NCBI GenBank assembly: GCA_023374025.1
Contig: SIJG01000182.1
Span: 122,900 to 186,899 of the forward strand
Direction: 5' to 3'
DNA length: 64,000 nt
Source of the DNA: Heterodera schachtii
Taxonomy: Eukaryota; Nematoda; Chromadorea; Rhabditida; Heteroderidae
Shown: positions 24,741 to 63,590 of the stretch, piece by piece
Layout: each line of letters starts with the position of its first letter
Position numbering within the stretch: the stretch's first letter is position 1
Position numbers and translations under genes: made by a program
Notes under the pieces: generated by a model
Databases searched by the model: none
What the model was told of the DNA's origin: nothing
Seen by the model: only the letters and a program-made list of their open reading frames with translations

Positions 24741-25017
24741 AAATAGAGGGCTTCCTTTTTTCGGCATTAAATAGGCACTAAAATAGGCAAATAATTTTTT
24801 AAATTAATTTTTAGCAAAACACATAAAAACTTCAATTTTATAAACATTTTTCGAATAAGGATAAATTTTTAGCAAAAATTTTTATTAGAAAAAATTAAAT
24901 GTTGAGACCAATTTTTGGGAAAAATTTTTTTTCAATTCTTTGGGGAGTATTTTCTAAATTTTTTCGGGCCATTTCTTAGGTGTGTATTTTTCGTTTTTAT
25001 TGCATTTTTGGGTGCTA

Positions 25018-25150
25018 GGTCGAACCGAAAATAGTCTCAGTGTGGGCGAACCGAAAATGGTCTCAGTGTGGGCGAACCGAAAAACTGTCTCAGTGTGGGC
25101 GAACCGAAAATGGTCTCAGTGTGGGCGAACCGCAAATAGTCTCAGTGTGA
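25018..25150 (+). repeat. Left terminal minisatellite array of the MULE, about 5 units
   Basis: Units GAACCGAAAATAGTCTCAGT followed by GTGGGC repeat about five times, in inverted orientation relative to the array at 29690-31865. Variants ATGGTCTCAG and AACTGTCTCAG match variants in the right array. Confidence 0.95.
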
Positions 25151-25382
25151 ATAAAAAGATTTAAATTTAATTATACGATTCACTAAATCATATAATTATA
25201 TAAAAAAATAATAGTGTGTAAATCAATAATTCCCAACACGTATAATTTTACGAGCTACGTAAATAAAAAAAATTAATATGCATATGATGGATTTTATATG
25301 TTAACGCAAAAAATAAAAATATAATCATAATTTTATCTGTTAGTTGTATTTATTTATCATAATATTGCTATAATTTAGAAAA

Positions 25383-27260
25383 ATGAATAAAATTTTTATT
25401 TTAAAACTTATAATTTTATTCTTATTTGAATATTCTACAACCAGCAAGTCTGGCTTTGAAGAATTTATAAAAAATCACGAAGCTATTGAACTCGTCAAAA
25501 GCTACCAAAATAAAGAAATTAATTCCATAATAAAACTCCATGAACAAATGCAATTGAAAGGGATTAAGTTAAGCTTATGTACGTTGAAACGTTACTTGGC
25601 CAAACTAACTGTCGTTTCCGCACACACAAACAAAAATGATTCTTACACAACTGATGCCCCAATACCCGAGATCAAAGCTGAAAAATGTTTCTCACGAGAT
25701 TTAACAAAAACTGTTTTTATAATTGGAAACGAACCGAACTGGAGGAAATACCGTCGAATGAATGACAAAAATGAGGACATTATATATTTCTTGTTCAAAA
25801 TGTCTCTATTTAAGTGAACAAGAAAAAAATGTTAATGTTAAATCAATTGTTTCATCAGCAGTTTTGCGACAGGGGAAAAATCTCGTTATGTTGCACTCTA
25901 AACATAATGCTAAGTGTAAGCCAGAAGAGTTAGAGAAAATTGAAGCAGAACAAGTCGATAGAGAACAAAGGAAAGAACATTTGAAGTGTGAGTCAGAAGG
26001 CAAAGTCATTTGGCGTCAAGGCTTATCAAAGGTACGAGAAACTGACTTAAAAAACAATACAGATCCGTTGGATGAAAATTCGATTTCGAATAATTATCCT
26101 TCATGGATATCAGTTCGTCGTGCTTACAAACGAAAGAGGCAACAGCAACAAGGCACCGATTCTAATGACCCTTTTGATGTCCCCGAAAGATTACAATTAA
26201 CGAAATTAGGATCACTCAAACTATTAATGGGAAAAACAATTGTTGGAACTGAATGGATGATATATAAAAATCGGGATATTGGAATTATGCTTTTTGCATC
26301 AAAAATTCAATTAGAAGCTGCTAAAAATTGCAAAGTAATGGTAGCAGACGCTACATTTGAGATAGCGCCTAGAGGATTTAGACAAATATGGCTTATTCAT
26401 GGACTGGTAAAAATCATTAAAAATTAAGCATAAAAATTGAATAAGTTAATAATTGTTGAAAAATAAAAACATAATTTAAATGTATAAATATTTTAGTATG
26501 AAACCAATGAAGGAAACGAATGGGTAGTTCTCGCATTTTCATTAATGGAACGAAAAGATCAACTCTCTTATGAAACTATTTTAAAAGAACTTTCTGATCG
26601 TTGGGGAAACGAAACAATAGAACAAATCGAACGGATACATGTTGATTACGAAAAAGCAGAAATCAATGCTTTTATTAAATTCTTTGGTCAGCAAAAAATA
26701 TACGGGTGTATTGTTCATTTTATACGCGCTGCTTTGCGACATATGCAAACGGAATTACCAAGACTGTGGAGGGAATATATAAAAGAGAAAAGAGAAAATG
26801 GACCAATCTATAAGTATATCAGAAGGCTTTTAGCTTTACCTATTTTAAATAAAAACGAAATCCATCGAATATGGCCGCACATAAAAAATTTTGAAGTTGA
26901 AGAAGATTTAAAAGAAAACTTAGACGGATTTCTTCGTTACTTTGATAAAGAATGGATTAGAAAAATTGAACTAGGAAATTTGTGGAATTTTAATAAATTG
27001 TCGAGAACCCGGGGTACAAATCCAGCAGAAGCATGGCATTCTGCCATTAAAAAGTTTGTAATAATATTAGCCATCATTTTACTAAAAATTTAGGGAACCA
27101 AGCAGTGTTCGTAATGCGACGGTACCCGTTTTTTTAAATTTTTTCCAAACAGTTATGTCAGAAATAGATGACCGCATCATAAAAATTAAAAATGGGAAAT
27201 CGAAACCTAGACCAAGAAATAAATTATATTCAGCACTAGAGAATATGAGGTCACTAATCT
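25383..27260 (+). CDS. MULE transposase with WRKY/FLYWCH-type zinc finger
   Basis: The first frame (25383 to about 25785) has a hydrophobic start, a helical ELVKSYQNKEINSIIKLHEQ segment and then NWRKYRRMNDKNEDIIYF. A one-base shift leads into CSKCLYLSEQEKN...HSKHNAKC, a C-x2-C...H-x4-C zinc finger of the WRKY-GCM1/FLYWCH type used for DNA binding. The catalytic core follows. VADATFEIAPRGFRQIWLIH holds the first Asp. After an intron (GTAAAA donor at about 26407, TTTTAG acceptor near 26495) comes HVDYEKAEINAF with the second Asp, then GCIVHFIRAALRHMQ with the usual C-x3-H. TRGTNPAEAWHS holds the catalytic Glu (position 3 of DDE). After the next intron comes EPSSVRNATVPVFLNFFQTV. All DDE residues are present. 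The zinc-finger frameshift (an extra T near 25783) is either inactivation or an assembly error. Exons appear to continue in frame into the OTU region. Confidence 0.85.
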
Positions 27261-27299
27261 TTAAATAAATATTAAAGCATTTTTATAAATATAGGGTCT

Positions 27300-28358
27300 G
27301 CTTATTTCCCAATTTCACGATGAAAGTGATTTTGTGCAAAATACTGAGCATTTTCTTAATAGAATTTCATATTTAATTCTTCAAATGAATGAGCCAGGAA
27401 ATAAAACAAACAAAGATGCTAGAAAAAATGAGGTTTAATTTTATAAAATGGCATTTATATTATAATAAATAAATTTAAAAATTTAAAGCGAAAAAGAAAA
27501 TTGGATAAAATCGGTGATAAGGATTTTGATTCACCAACAGAAGGAGAACAAGAGTTACCAACAGAAGAGAACAAAATAATCGAGAATGAACCCGAACAAA
27601 AGACAGTTTTTTATTCCTTTCAAAAACAGCCTAGCAAAATTAAATTTATATTTAATCCTCCTTCGGAAAGTGAAAAAATTCTTTTTTGCCAAAAATGGGA
27701 TTATATTTATGAAGCTTCAAGCAATAAATTTGCTGATAAATTTGAGTTTGAAGCAGACAATTATGGGCCTGGATGCGTACAACAAATTGTTGGAGATGGA
27801 AATTGTGGATTTCGCAGCCTCTCATGGGCATTAACAGGCACAGAAATAAATCATGATGATATACGACAAGATATAATGAATTTTGTAGAAGATACATTAA
27901 ATCAGTACGACATCGATTCAGAAGGAAATGATTGGTGGGGTAAGAGAATAGCAATGTCATATTTAGGCCATGATAATTTGTTAAATTATTTAAATTACAA
28001 TTAAGAGATGTTTTTTTCTGAGAAAGCTGCTGTTATTGATCATATTTCCCAAAAAAAAAATCCAGCGCAAAATGCTTCCGAAGTAAATAAATGGATGAAT
28101 GAATTTGATGCATTTGCTTTTTCAAAATTATTTAAAATAAACATTATTATTTGTACAACAAAAGAAAATAAAACGTTTTGGCAAATTTTTACTCCCACAA
28201 TGAACAAAAGTGTTAGTAAGCTTAATTTATTTAATTTTAATATAAAAATTATTTAGTTATTAAATTGGGAACAAGCAGAAGGTCGACCAAGTGTTTTTGT
28301 TTACAATTCTTTGAATCATTACGAGGTGATCGTCGACCCGATTAAACTTGGGAATTGA
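27300..28358 (+). CDS. OTU-type cysteine protease domain, probably C-terminal part of the transposase polyprotein
   Basis: Exon 27300-27431 (GLLISQFHDESDFVQNTEHF then LNRISYLILQMNEPGNKTNK) ends at AAAAATGAG|GTTTAA. It is continued in frame after TTAAAG at 27488 by an acidic linker and then GPGCVQQIVGDGNCGFRSLS, WALTGTEINHDDIRQDIMNF. The D-G-N-C-G-F-R-S motif is the OTU catalytic Asp/Cys box. An exon at about 28010-28211 continues (NKWMNEFDAFAFSKLFKINI, FWQIFTPTMNKS). The last exon, 28257-28358, reads SVFVYNSLNHYEVIVDPIKL with the catalytic His in NHYEV. OTU proteases remove ubiquitin or similar modifiers. In a transposon this may protect the transposase or interfere with host silencing; that is inference. 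One frame break near 28004 looks like an intron (AATTAAG acceptor). Catalytic residues appear complete. Confidence 0.8.
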
Positions 28359-28744
28359 TATTTAAATTTATTTAAAAAAATTCATACATAGCACATTTAG
28401 TTATTCAAAACTGATTTCCAAAATGGCGAAACATTATGCCTTATTGATAAAGTGATAAATTTTCTTTGCCTCCTTTTTCAATATTTAACAAATTATAAAT
28501 TCCCGAAATAGAAAATTAACTGATAACAAAAGAGTAGAAAATTAACTGATAACAAAAGACTTTATTTCAATATTATTGTCTTGCTTAAGGACTAACAAGC
28601 ACTAAAAAATCAACACATTGAAATTTTTAAATTATCTTTTTTCACAGCAAAATATAAAAACATTTCAATTTGGGCTGAGCGGGCGTGGCGTTGTCTGTTT
28701 CCTTCATGGTCTAAAAATTTTATTTAGATAAATTGTCATTTTTT

Positions 28745-29172
28745 CTAACCGGTAAAACAAATCTCCTCTAAATTCGGAGTGCGCCAAATTTGCTCAATTT
28801 TGGAAAATAAAAAGTCATTATTAAAAGTCTCAACATCCATCGTGATTGTGTGTTCGTCAATTCTCATTTTAAGCGGAAAAAAACTTTCAATCGTTGGACA
28901 TCTGTTTAACAGGGGAATTAAATTCTTATGATATAAGCCTTTTGAGTAGGTAGGTAAACTGACTAACATTTTCCATTAACACCATGTATGCTGTAGGATA
29001 TCAAATATCCAACCACCGCCGATCCGACCACAATTGGTATCAAAACGAGAGCTGCAATACCTCCAATTGCTAAAACAGTGAGGATAGCACGACGATGTAC
29101 CGGTTTTTGTTCGATTTTGACACTTTGGTAAAGTATAAGGTACAAAAATAAAATTTTTTTGATTGGATGCAT
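28745..29172 (-). CDS. Transposon accessory membrane protein (two overlapping frames)
   Basis: Minus strand, convergent with the transposase. The first frame (29172-28963) starts MHPIKKILFLYLILYQSVKI, a signal-peptide-like segment. After a basic stretch (KPVHRRA) it has a long hydrophobic span, ILTVLAIGGIAALVLIPIVV then GSAVVGYLISYSI. The second (28969-28745) starts MLVSLPTYSKGLYHKNLIPL and continues NRCPTIESFFPLKMRIDEHT, NNDFLFSKIEQIWRTPNLEE. The stop and start overlap as ATGTTAG, so it is either two overlapping genes or one membrane protein broken by a frameshift; the second is simpler. No family was recognised. Its position inside the termini and opposite strand suggest a second gene of the transposon. 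Confidence 0.6.
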
Positions 29173-29295
29173 TGTTGCGATTGGGAGGGATTATTTAATT
29201 AAATTTTTTGAATTATAGATTAATAAATTAGCTTAAATACTCAGATTTTACTATGACATTCTTATGTTATCAATTTTCGCTATTTGGGAATCAAA

Positions 29296-29505
29296 ATTAT
29301 AAAATCTTTACATGAAATGCAAAGAAAATTAGCACCTTATCAATTGTGTTCAATTAATTTGTGAATTTTTCCTTTTTTAGTTTTGTAATAAAAATTATAA
29401 ATTCTTTACATGAAATGCAAAGAAAATTAGCACCTTATCAATTGTGTTCAATTAATTTGTGAATTTTTCCTTTTTTAGTTTTGTAATAAAAATTATAAAT
29501 TCTTT
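29296..29505. repeat. Tandem duplication, about 105 bp x 2
   Basis: The unit AAAATTATAAATTCTTTACA TGAAATGCAAAG...CCTTTTTTAGTTTTGTAAT is present twice in a row inside the MULE, between the membrane-protein gene and the right terminus. Very few differences are seen, so it is recent. Confidence 0.9.
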
Positions 29506-29689
29506 TCTATAAAGCATTCAATAAAAATTAAATCGAAATTATATTTACAGTTCAAAATTAATATTTTAAATTAAATTTTTATTTTATCAATCACTGGGCT
29601 TTTTTTGTGGAACGACTCACCACGGTGGAAAATTAAAAAAATATAATTATTTGATTTAGTGAATCGTATAATTAAATTTAAATATTTTT

Positions 29690-31865
29690 ATTCACACTGA
29701 GACTATTTGCGGTTCGCCCACACTGAGACAGTTTTTCGGTTCGCCCACACTGAGACCATTTTCGGTTCGCCCACACTGAGACTATTTTCGGTTCGCCCAC
29801 ACTGAGACTATTTGCGGTTCGCCCTCACTGAGACAGTTTTTCGGTTCGCCCACACTGAGACTATTTTCGGTTCGCCCACACTGAGACAGTTTTTCGGTTC
29901 GCCCACACTGAGACTATTTTCGGTTCGCCCACACTGAGACTATTTTCGGTTCGCCCACACTGAGACTATTTTCGGTTCGCCCACACTGAGACTATTTGCG
30001 GTTCGCCCTCACTGAGACAGTTTTTCGGTTCGCCCACACTGAGACTATTTTCGGTTCGCCCACACTGAGACTATTTGCGGTTCGCCCTCACTGAGACAGT
30101 TTTTCGGTTCGCCCACACTGAGACTATTTTCGGTTCGCCCACACTGAGACAGTTTTTCGGTTCGCCCACACTGAGACTATTTTCGGTTCGCCCACACTGA
30201 GACTATTTTCGGTTCGCCCACACTGAGACTATTTTCGGTTCGCCCACACTGAGACTATTTGCGGTTCGCCCTCACTGAGACAGTTTTTCGGTTCGCCCAC
30301 ACTGAGACTATTTTCGGTTCGCCCACACTGAGACAGTTTTTCGGTTCGCCCACACTGAGACTATTTTCGGTTCGCCCACACTGAGACTATTTTCGGTTCG
30401 CCCACACTGAGACTATTTTCGGTTCGCCCACACTGAGACTATTTTCGGTTCGCCCACACTGAGACTATTTTCGGTTCGCCCACACTGAGACTATTTTCGG
30501 TTCGCCCACACTGAGACTATTTTCGGTTCGCCCACACTGAGACTATTTTCGGTTCGCCCACACTGAGACTATTTTCGGTTCGCCCACACTGAGACTATTT
30601 GCGGTTCGCCCTCACTGAGACAGTTTTTCGGTTCGCCCACACTGAGACTATTTTCGGTTCGCCCACACTGAGACAGTTTTTCGGTTCGCCCACACTGAGA
30701 CTATTTTCGGTTCGCCCACACTGAGACTATTTTCGGTTCGCCCACACTGAGACTATTTTCGGTTCGCCCACACTGAGACAGTTTTTCGGTTCGCCCACAC
30801 TGAGACCATTTTCGGTTCGCCCTCACTGAGACAGTTTTTCGGTTCGCCCACACTGAGACTATTTTCGGTTCGCCCACACTGAGACAGTTTTTCGGTTCGC
30901 CCACACTGAGACTATTTTCGGTTCGCCCACACTGAGACTATTTTCGGTTCGCCCACACTGAGACTATTTTCGGTTCGCCCACACTGAGACAGTTTTTCGG
31001 TTCGCCCACACTGAGACCATTTTCGGTTCGCCCACACTGAGACTATTTTCGGTTCGCCCACACTGAGACTATTTTCGGTTCGCCCACACTGAGACAGTTT
31101 TTCGGTTCGCCCACACTGAGACTATTTGCGGTTCGCCCTCACTGAGACTATTTTCGGTTCGCCCACACTGAGACTATTTTCGGTTCGCCCACACTGAGAC
31201 TATTTGCGGTTCGCCCTCACTGAGACTATTTGCGGTTCGCCCTCACTGAGACTATTTTCGGTTCGCCCACACTGAGACTATTTTCGGTTCGCCCACACTG
31301 AGACTATTTGCGGTTCGCCCTCACTGAGACTATTTTCGGTTCGCCCACACTGAGACTATTTGCGGTTCGCCCTCACTGAGACTATTTTCGGTTCGCCCAC
31401 ACTGAGACTATTTTCGGTTCGCCCACACTGAGACTATTTGCGGTTCGCCCTCACTGAGACTATTTTCGGTTCGCCCACACTGAGACTATTTTCGGTTCGC
31501 CCACACTGAGACTATTTTCGGTTCGCCCACACTGAGACTATTTGCGGTTCGCCCTCACTGAGACTATTTTCGGTTCGCCCACACTGAGACTATTTTCGGT
31601 TCGCCCACACTGAGACCATTTTCGGTTCGCCCACACTGAGACTATTTTCGGTTCGCCCACACTGAGACCATTTTCGGTTCGCCCACACTGAGACTATTTT
31701 CGGTTCGCCCACACTGAGACCATTTTCGGTTCGCCCACACTGAGACTATTTTCGGTTCGCCCACACTGAGACCATTTTCGGTTCGCCCACACTGAGACTA
31801 TTTTCGGTTCGCCCACACTGAGACCATTTTCGGTTCGCCCACACTGAGACTATTTTCGGTTCGTC
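29690..31865. repeat. Right terminal minisatellite array of the MULE, about 80 units with higher-order pattern
   Basis: About 2.18 kb of the 26-27-bp unit CGGTTCGCCCACACTGAGAC with variable tails TATTTT, CATTTT, TATTTG and AGTTTTT, plus a CCCTCAC variant that accompanies the TATTTG tail. The variants recur in blocks: for example TATTTG/CCCTCAC followed by AGTTTTT, TATTTT, AGTTTTT and several TATTTT units, at about 29990, 30070, 30250 and 30600. The last 300 bp alternate CATTTT and TATTTT. This shows higher-order amplification. Open frames across it are repeat artefacts. Confidence 0.95.
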
Positions 31866-31949
31866 TCACCACGCATTTTTGTTAAGATTTTTTCGAAAAT
31901 CCTGAAATAGGCCATTAGGCACAAAAACCCCGAAATAGGCAAGTAAATT

Positions 31950-60560: not shown

Positions 60561-60627
60561 TTTTTGAAGATTTTTAAGAAATCAGAACAAAATTGGGTAA
60601 CCCTGGATAATTTACGTGGTGAGTCGA

Positions 60628-60745
60628 AGTGACAAAAGTGCGAATGTTTGCGAAGTGACAAAAGTGCGAATGTGGGGAAGTGACAAAAGTGCGAACGAAG
60701 TGATAAAAGTGCGAATGTGGGCGAAGTGACAAAAGTGCGAATGAG
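60628..60745 (+). repeat. Left terminal minisatellite, about 5 units
   Basis: GAAGTGACAAAAGTGCGAAT plus GTGGGC-like tails of variable length (20-26 bp periods). Only one partial unit is seen at the right end (ACTCATTCGCAC), so again the arrays are asymmetric, here longer on the left. Confidence 0.85.
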
Positions 60746-61139
60746 GGATGATCGGAAGGGGCGGGTCATTTCAGTACCGAATATTAATTAATTATTAATA
60801 TAATTATTTTAATATATTAATTTGATTAGTTTTATAAATTCGATTTATTATTTAATTTTCCTCTATAAATCACATTTTAAGAGAAATAATATTCATAATC
60901 ATATTTTATAAATTTCGGTCGCTTGCACTTTTATTTCATTCACAATTATATTATATTTTGTCTAGATTAATACTTCAAAATAAGCTTTCTTCCTTTTCTT
61001 TTCAGCTAGTAATTTATTTCTCTAATATTCAACCATCATTTTTGTCTCTGATTAATTTTATTTTCAAATTTTTATGGGTTAAATAGACAGTTTTCTAAAT
61101 TTAACCAATTAAATCTTGTTTAATCCACCATCGATTTGT

Positions 61140-61645
61140 GAAATGTATAATTTCGCAGAGGAATGGGATTCTCTATGGGAACAGCCAGAAAAGTAATATG
61201 CAAATCAATTCGAGTTTCAAACCAGTAATCTTGTTGGCGGGCGTAAGTCTTAATTTGTTTATAAAGGCGGATTTATAGCTATTTTAGAAATGTTTTTTTC
61301 ACACAAAGAAGATGCAATCAAACATGCATCAACAAAAAACTCCCGGCTAAAAAGGCTTCTGAGCTTGAAAAATGGATGAGTGCCTTTGACTTGTTTGTCG
61401 CTGCAAAATTATATCGGATAAATATTGTAATGTGTAGACAAGATAGAGAGGAATACTTTTGACAGATTTTTACTCCCAATATGGATAATTCCGTAAAAGA
61501 CTAACATTAATTTTTATAAAATTAGAAAAATTGTTTTCTATTGTATATTAAGATGGTCGCTTATCAAGACCGTGAAACGCCAACCATTTTTATTTTAAAC
61601 TCTACAAATCACTTTGAAGTGATACTGGAACCAACTCGACTTTGA
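61140..61645 (+). pseudogene. OTU-protease region remnant of the MULE family
   Basis: Plus-strand pieces align with the C-terminal part of the 25-kb element's protein. EEWDSLWEQPEK, stop, YANQFEFQTSN corresponds to QKWDYIYEASSNKFADKFEF. MFFSHKEDAIKHAS corresponds to MFFSEKAAVIDHIS. After a frameshift ASELEKWMSAFDLFVAAKLY corresponds to ASEVNKWMNEFDAFAFSKLF, and IFTPNMDNS corresponds to IFTPTMNKS. ETPTIFILNSTNHFEVILEP corresponds to the catalytic-His segment. The Asp/Cys box is deleted. At least one stop and two shifts make it a clear pseudogene. Confidence 0.8.
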
Positions 61646-63411: not shown

Positions 63412-63590
63412 AGTAAACTATAATTATAACTATTATTTCTCTTAAAATGTGATTTATAGAGGAAAATTAAATAATAAATCGAATTTATAAAACTAATCAA
63501 ATTAATATATTAAAATAATTATATTAATAATTAATTAATATTCGGTACTGAAATGACCCGCCTCTTCTGATCATCACTCATTCGCACAGC

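Follow-up and report, generated by a model that had tools for sequence, protein, structure and literature searches.

A foldback Mutator-like element of Heterodera schachtii with a predicted transposase-OTU protease fusion

The DNA analyzed here, referred to as the window, is a 64,000-nucleotide stretch of the genome of the nematode Heterodera schachtii (GenBank assembly GCA_023374025.1, contig SIJG01000182.1, positions 122,900 to 186,899, forward strand). It carries a transposable element at positions 25011-31872, bounded on both sides by GCATTTTTG, whose gene is predicted to encode a DDE transposase joined to an OTU-type protease (Table 1). The 9-bp duplication had been recognized in a first-pass annotation, as had the foldback termini, which we find to be inverted arrays of ~26-nt units in 4.9 and 82.9 copies. 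The element tips are asymmetric, with GGTGCTAGG on the left and GTGGTGAG on the right; among the elements compared across the genome, the array units vary between lineages and the tips are similar. We checked 13 elements of the genome for target-site duplications, permitting one base of slack per tip, and found perfect 8-9 bp duplications in 11, including the window copy; the duplication of the copy designated C139 has one mismatch, and no tip was found for C19. The combination of a target duplication within the 8-11 bp range of Mutator-like elements (MULEs) beside inverted ends, and of long inverted termini built from tandem units, supports classification as a foldback-type MULE. The two tips have no fixed place relative to the gene: the 5' tip reads GGTGCTA in some copies and is CGTGGTGAG-like in others, differing even between the sister copies C43 and C101 (C43, C113, C31, C36, and C94 were compared with the window copy, C101, C6, C1, C4, and C139), as if the interior flipped between the inverted arrays.

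The gene is divided into seven putative exons, whose boundaries were deduced from the sequence; the start and stop were read directly from the DNA. Its reading frame is broken twice: in exon 1, which encodes the zinc finger and is split between an open reading frame (ORF) ending at 25817 and another starting at 25762, and again where exon 3 ends, just before 27250, by a gap that is partly common to the C71 copy. The window copy is a frame-damaged family member, and not the complete coding element first described. The finger exon is open in C1 and C4:2568016, unlike in the window, and OTU exons 5-7 of the window form an uninterrupted reading frame.

The transposase assignment holds up well. The ADATF, VDYEKA, and NPAEAWH motifs that had been reported are present and supply the D, D, and E of a MULE-type DDE transposase, and the MULE profile PF10551 is matched above its cut-off by the window copy (E 2.6e-6, 28.2 bits against a cut-off of 27.6) and by C43. 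All four members of group A1 match it at E <= 0.1 (family and lineage groupings are our own, based on the locus survey, the ratio of nonsynonymous to synonymous substitution (dN/dS), and trees). A motif previously given as C-x3-H is actually C-x2-H. The zinc finger had been described as a WRKY/FLYWCH type with C-x2-C and H-x4-C pairs. The first pair stands, but the second is H-x3-C by our own reading of the aligned copies, and Pfam lists the finger of the C1 copy as RYYR-CCHC (PF23674; E 4e-7, 30.3 bits against a cut-off of 27). C43 matches this family below the cut-off (residues 98-173). FLYWCH (PF04500) has no match at E <= 1 in exon 1 of C1 or C43, so that identity was dropped.

The OTU box GDGNCGF and the histidine of NHYEV are likewise present as first read. 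When the three OTU exons of the window are spliced, their product exceeds the cut-offs for OTU (PF02338; E 8.1e-6, 26.8 against 23.3) and Peptidase C65 (E 5e-7, 29.9 against 24.3); searched singly, these exons reach neither. The spliced OTU part of C43 also passes the PF02338 cut-off. Thus, of the three families against which profile searches of the translated exons had been proposed, MULE was found, OTU was found after splicing, and FLYWCH was not. The GAG|CGA junction is in frame, as originally claimed, with one exon ending at 27432 and the next starting at 27489, but two introns within the OTU part had been missed. By hand count, the GDGNC cysteine is retained in 16 of the 17 aligned rows that span the site, the catalytic aspartate in the same 16, and the histidine in 16/16, the window copy being among the rows in each case. 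The sole row without the cysteine is C6, where the region is deleted, and three more rows end before it. Chance resemblance to OTU is ruled out by the profile scores after splicing together with this conservation in other copies. The top solved-structure match, Ika8, was set aside as a repeat artefact in which no single stretch passes, as was Ika4. OTU enzymes cleave ubiquitin chains, and we infer a protease with this activity from the conserved sequence.

That the two domains belong to one spliced gene is well supported by sequence comparison, because they co-occur at 15 loci and because an open, spliced version of the gene exists in C43. This copy, 66% identical to the window copy in the DDE core, has six GT-AG introns of 37-47 nt, the removal of which yields an open 922-amino acid protein with MULE at residues 314-412 (E 5.3e-8) and OTU at residues 768-873 (E 1.4e-5), both above cut-off. 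Genome searches gave 28 matches for the DDE core, 23 for the OTU exon, and 42 for the finger exon. We examined all DDE-core and OTU-exon matches and 20 of the 42 finger-exon matches, each with ~1.5 kb of flank, calling homology at tblastn E <= 0.01. The first-pass annotation held that the fusion would fall if the two domains never co-occurred in other copies, but they do: finger-exon or DDE homology was seen at 29 loci, and at 15 of these an OTU sequence lies downstream on the same strand. In nine of the 15 the order is complete, from the finger exon and DDE core through the exon-4 segment to both main OTU exons, and the rest are without at least one piece. The finger/DDE exon of these 15 loci ranges from ~40% to 87% local identity to the window, except for C71 (96-99%); this co-occurrence in diverged copies led us to reject a recent OTU capture in a single copy.

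Table 1. Features of the element in the window (positions count from the first nucleotide of the window)
Feature	Position	Strand	Remark
Left target-site duplication, GCATTTTTG	25002..25010	.	adjoins left tip
Left terminal motif, GGTGCTAGG	25011..25019	+	alike in other families
5' tandem array, 26-nt units, 4.9 copies	25021..25149	+	
Inverted repeat, inner part	25107..25201	+	pairs with 29641-29735 at 96%
Exon 1: leader, helix-turn-helix-like region (by eye), CCHC finger, start of DDE domain	25383..26406	+	
21-codon hydrophobic, signal-peptide-like leader	25383..25445	+	splice-acceptor-like AATTTAG four bases upstream
RYYR-CCHC-type zinc finger	25683..25920	+	position transferred from C1 copy
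First catalytic Asp of DDE (ADATF)	26347..26349	+	
Exon 2, MULE core	26497..27053	+	
Second catalytic Asp (VDYEKA)	26644..26646	+	exon 2
Catalytic Glu (NPAEAWH)	27028..27030	+	exon 2
Exon 3	27094..27249	+	gap relative to relatives breaks frame
Exon 4, C-terminal transposase segment	27295..27432	+	C43 counterpart mostly inside exchanged block
Intron linking transposase to OTU (GAG|CGA)	27433..27488	+	position and phase shared with C43 and C113
Exon 5, linker and first OTU part	27489..27939	+	
Asp of GDGNCGF	27795..27797	+	exon 5
Cys of GDGNCGF	27804..27806	+	exon 5
Introns within OTU part	27940..28005 and 28212..28256	+	
Exon 6, OTU middle	28006..28211	+	
Exon 7, OTU end	28257..28358	+	stop at 28356-28358
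His of NHYEV	28317..28319	+	exon 7
Inner arm of 3' inverted repeat	29641..29735	-	
3' tandem array, 26-nt units, 82.9 copies	29693..31863	-	
Right terminal motif, GTGGTGAG (read on -)	31865..31872	-	
Right target-site duplication, GCATTTTTG	31873..31881	.	adjoins right tip

Pairwise dN/dS values (NG86, 19 loci, medians over pairs with dS of 0.15-1.5) indicate that the OTU part is under constraint like that on the transposase; the pairs overlap and are not independent. The medians were 0.148 for the finger/DDE exon (26 pairs), 0.25 for the DDE core (9 pairs), 0.199 for the main OTU exon (35 pairs), and 0.302 for the second OTU exon (37 pairs). Five pairs with dS of ~0.1 or less, two of the finger exon and three of the second OTU exon, gave values above 1, which can arise between decaying copies.

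The OTU-coding tail appears to have been moved between diverged elements by recombination or gene conversion. The transposase exons of C43 and C113 are 58-86% identical (150-nt windows), whereas identity is 88-97% from ~3015 to 4170 of C43 (40-nt windows) and drops to 35-80% beyond. This block begins inside exon 4 and reaches the OTU stop (~4180 of C43), introns 5 and 6 being exceptions at 80% and 85%; in the comparison of C43 with C36 it has the same edges and is 90-100% identical. Protein constraint alone is insufficient to explain the rise, because introns in the block are 80-97% identical, compared with 65-68% for the intron just outside, and because dS between C43 and both C36 and C113 is 0.05-0.19 in the OTU exon versus 1.2 in the finger exon. 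Trees of the two regions also differ. The finger-exon tree makes C43 the sister of C101 (support 100/99) and rejects a constraint of C43 with C36 (p-AU 1.4e-6), whereas the OTU-block tree groups C43 with C36 (92/97) and disfavors constraints of C43 with C101 (p 0.023) and of C113, C31, and C36 together (p 0.0065). The groups were picked after viewing the identity plots, which makes these p-values optimistic, and the long C19 branch of the OTU tree was flagged.

OTU homology without a transposase was seen at six loci. At three of these (C10:1143538-1146768, C27:1126181-1129496, and C79:200368-203457), OTU sequence, reduced in C79 to a remnant of 28 residues, lies between terminal repeats of this type with no transposase detected. 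At 60615-61640 the window contains another element of this type, now decayed, in which no transposase was detected either; the tip CGTGGTGAG at 60615 is followed by short tandem units until ~60745 and by OTU remnants at ~61116-61640 on the plus strand, and an inverted match to its inner arm near 63440-63590 was seen by eye only. Overlapping minus-strand ORFs of 76 and 75 amino acids (28745-29190), one with a hydrophobic stretch following a Met, lie behind the OTU stop and ahead of the 3' array in the main element, and the DNA of 28380-29640 recurs piecewise across the genome in at least 69 matches. C1:664820-669745 contains a nested 2.2-kb insertion whose flanks repeat ~10 bp of the element (window 27282-27291).

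We consider it highly probable that the window element is a frame-damaged member of a cut-and-paste MULE family that makes a single spliced transposase-OTU protein. Several observations weigh against this reading. OTU was absent from the examined DNA of 14 of the 29 transposase loci, and lineages without it possibly exist: in C1 and C4:2568016 an internal deletion has brought DNA upstream of OTU next to DNA downstream, which led us to reject these copies as an ancestral OTU-less state, and most of the other loci are matches that are short, degraded, or distant. Searches outside the genome, which covered viral and prokaryote collections among others and have little bearing on other nematodes, gave no relative of the OTU exon at E <= 1e-3 (24 candidates) and none of the C43 protein (6620 candidates); none of 51 pattern matches in viral contigs was confirmed as a relative, nor was any of 34 in prokaryote genomes. 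Matches to solved structures are weak (OTUD1, 3, and 5 at E 0.007-0.046), and activity on ubiquitin is a prediction from sequence. An internal Met just ahead of the OTU domain of C43 would permit a separate OTU product. Finally, the leader points to the secretory pathway, an odd destination for a nuclear transposase.

The leader begins with ATG and encodes a hydrophobic stretch that ends at K-S exactly 21 codons on in 14 of the 16 copies inspected; the frame is interrupted in C277 and C94. When one copy from each of five lineages was taken, T occupied the second position of 53 out of 65 codons, whereas the other two positions had T in 26 and 38 (53/65 versus 64/130, p 1e-5), as expected of hydrophobic codons and not of plain T-rich DNA; given this codon-position bias, T-rich untranslated DNA is unlikely. 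Of the 10 readings in alternative frames, nine contain stops, C6 having one that is open. A splice-acceptor-like AG lies 2-4 nt upstream of the ATG in eight of the 10 aligned copies (by eye), which fits trans-splicing to this site. SL1-like RNA genes (E 3.1e-7, below the Rfam cut-off) occur in tandem arrays on contigs C9 and C30, often at a spacing of ~613 bases, and point to a nematode genome. These properties of the leader would suit a protein sent to the endoplasmic reticulum (ER), with the fused product leading a secretory or membrane life as a domesticated or dual-located protein and not as a plain transposase. We regard this alternative as unlikely, although it is the strongest of those considered. 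Besides the two interrupted frames, the proportions of nonsynonymous and synonymous differences (pN and pS) within the leader are nearly equal in most pairs (10 of the 14 copies aligned), so that its sequence is not conserved, the pairs with C6 having pS of 0.62-0.97 and pN of 0.42-0.49. Basic stretches of the nuclear-protein kind are seen by eye in the proteins, and near-identical copies at different sites point to a working transposon.

It is improbable that the element instead yields two products, with the OTU protein made separately, from its own start or by alternative splicing, and acting in trans. Maize MuDR, whose second gene is separate from its transposase, offers a parallel, and the three OTU loci between terminal repeats and the decayed element at 60.6-61.6 kb, all lacking detectable transposase, could be taken the same way, as could the internal Met of C43. 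However, C43 has no stop between transposase and OTU, and the window copy, C43, and C113 agree in the place and phase of the intron that joins the transposase C terminus to the OTU linker. That single copies took up a host OTU exon by chance and without function, in the manner of Pack-MULEs, is scarcely credible: MULEs are known to pick up pieces of genes (PMC6431247), the genome has OTU-domain matches in six other places, and the examined DNA around the OTU match C3:2414551 shows no transposase and no long terminal repeats, but OTU travels with transposases of several diverged lineages, its dN/dS is well below 1, its catalytic residues are kept, and the 23 genome matches of the OTU exon exclude all six of those places.

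Some Phantom MULEs have foldback-type ends. FLYWCH is, however, their usual finger, and the one here is RYYR-CCHC by Pfam; we do not file the element under Phantom. Both groups are animal MULEs (PMC6446971, PMC3169594), and because Table 1 of PMC6446971 gives Phantom fingers as none, FLYWCH, or SWIM, lack of FLYWCH alone does not exclude membership. Of the systems compared here, the closest from a nematode is Tm1, the Mutator/Foldback family of Meloidogyne root-knot nematodes (PMC3169594). Like the present element, it has composite terminal inverted repeats built from tandem units, its terminal motifs are asymmetric, most of its duplications are 9 bp long, and its gene is spliced, with a deduced SL1 acceptor. 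Tm1 differs in its 496-amino acid transposase, which has no room for such a leader because the finger match begins at residue 5, and in its repeat unit of 13-15 nt and other sequence, compared with 26 nt here. By eye, neither the terminal motifs nor the unit of Tm1 is found in our element, and the available Tm1 text contains neither the word OTU nor the word protease. OTU domains are known from both Ginger1 and Helitrons (PMC2836005). In Ginger1 an OTU or Ulp1 domain forms the C-terminal part of a DDE transposase, but that transposase is of the Gypsy-integrase type and the duplications are CCGG/CCGT (PMC2836005), whereas we find a MULE domain and 8-9 bp duplications; Helitrons and Helentrons encode OTU or tegument-type proteases of the deubiquitinase kind with a rolling-circle Rep-helicase in place of a DDE transposase (PMC9741609, PMC6431247). 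The first-pass suggestion that a transposase-OTU protein may be undescribed must be narrowed, since Table 1 of PMC6446971 assigns an "Ovarian Tumour Gene" motif to MULE group 14, MuDR-6_HM of Hydra, for which it gives neither a terminal inverted repeat nor a duplication length. The MULE-OTU pairing is already known from one Hydra group; among the literature matches listed, by title and opening of the abstract, none described a nematode MULE-OTU fusion, such a leader, or a cassette exchange.

The predicted product would consist of the hydrophobic leader, a helix-turn-helix-like region, the CCHC finger, the DDE (RNase H-like) transposase, an acidic linker, and the C-terminal OTU cysteine protease. 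The finger would bind the tandem units at the element ends, and, by analogy with known families, the DDE domain would cut the ends and insert them with an 8-9 bp duplication. The OTU domain may then strip ubiquitin, or a ubiquitin-like tag, off the transposase complex and shield it from ubiquitin-driven removal. Action on the complex itself is the role that we tentatively prefer, with repair factors or chromatin as the other candidate targets. The first-pass annotation had proposed that such a protease could stabilize the transposase or counter host silencing. Helitron-encoded proteases have been suggested to prevent proteasomal loss of transposition proteins, and transposon OTU domains are stated to be untested, in PMC9741609; repair signaling is suggested as a protease role in PMC2836005. 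A fuller scheme, in which the fusion has a working ER-targeting leader that takes its product through, or keeps it at, the secretory or nuclear-envelope membrane, and the OTU cassette is traded because it is needed against ubiquitin-based host control, seems to us doubtful, and somewhat more so than the secretory alternative discussed above.

A signal-peptide-like leader is surprising for an enzyme expected to work in the nucleus. Ubiquitin- and SUMO-type proteases occur in unrelated transposons, including Ginger1, Helitrons, and some MULEs. An OTU domain that is fused to a DDE transposase, constrained, and apparently swapped between lineages would provide a concrete case for a protease role in transposition.

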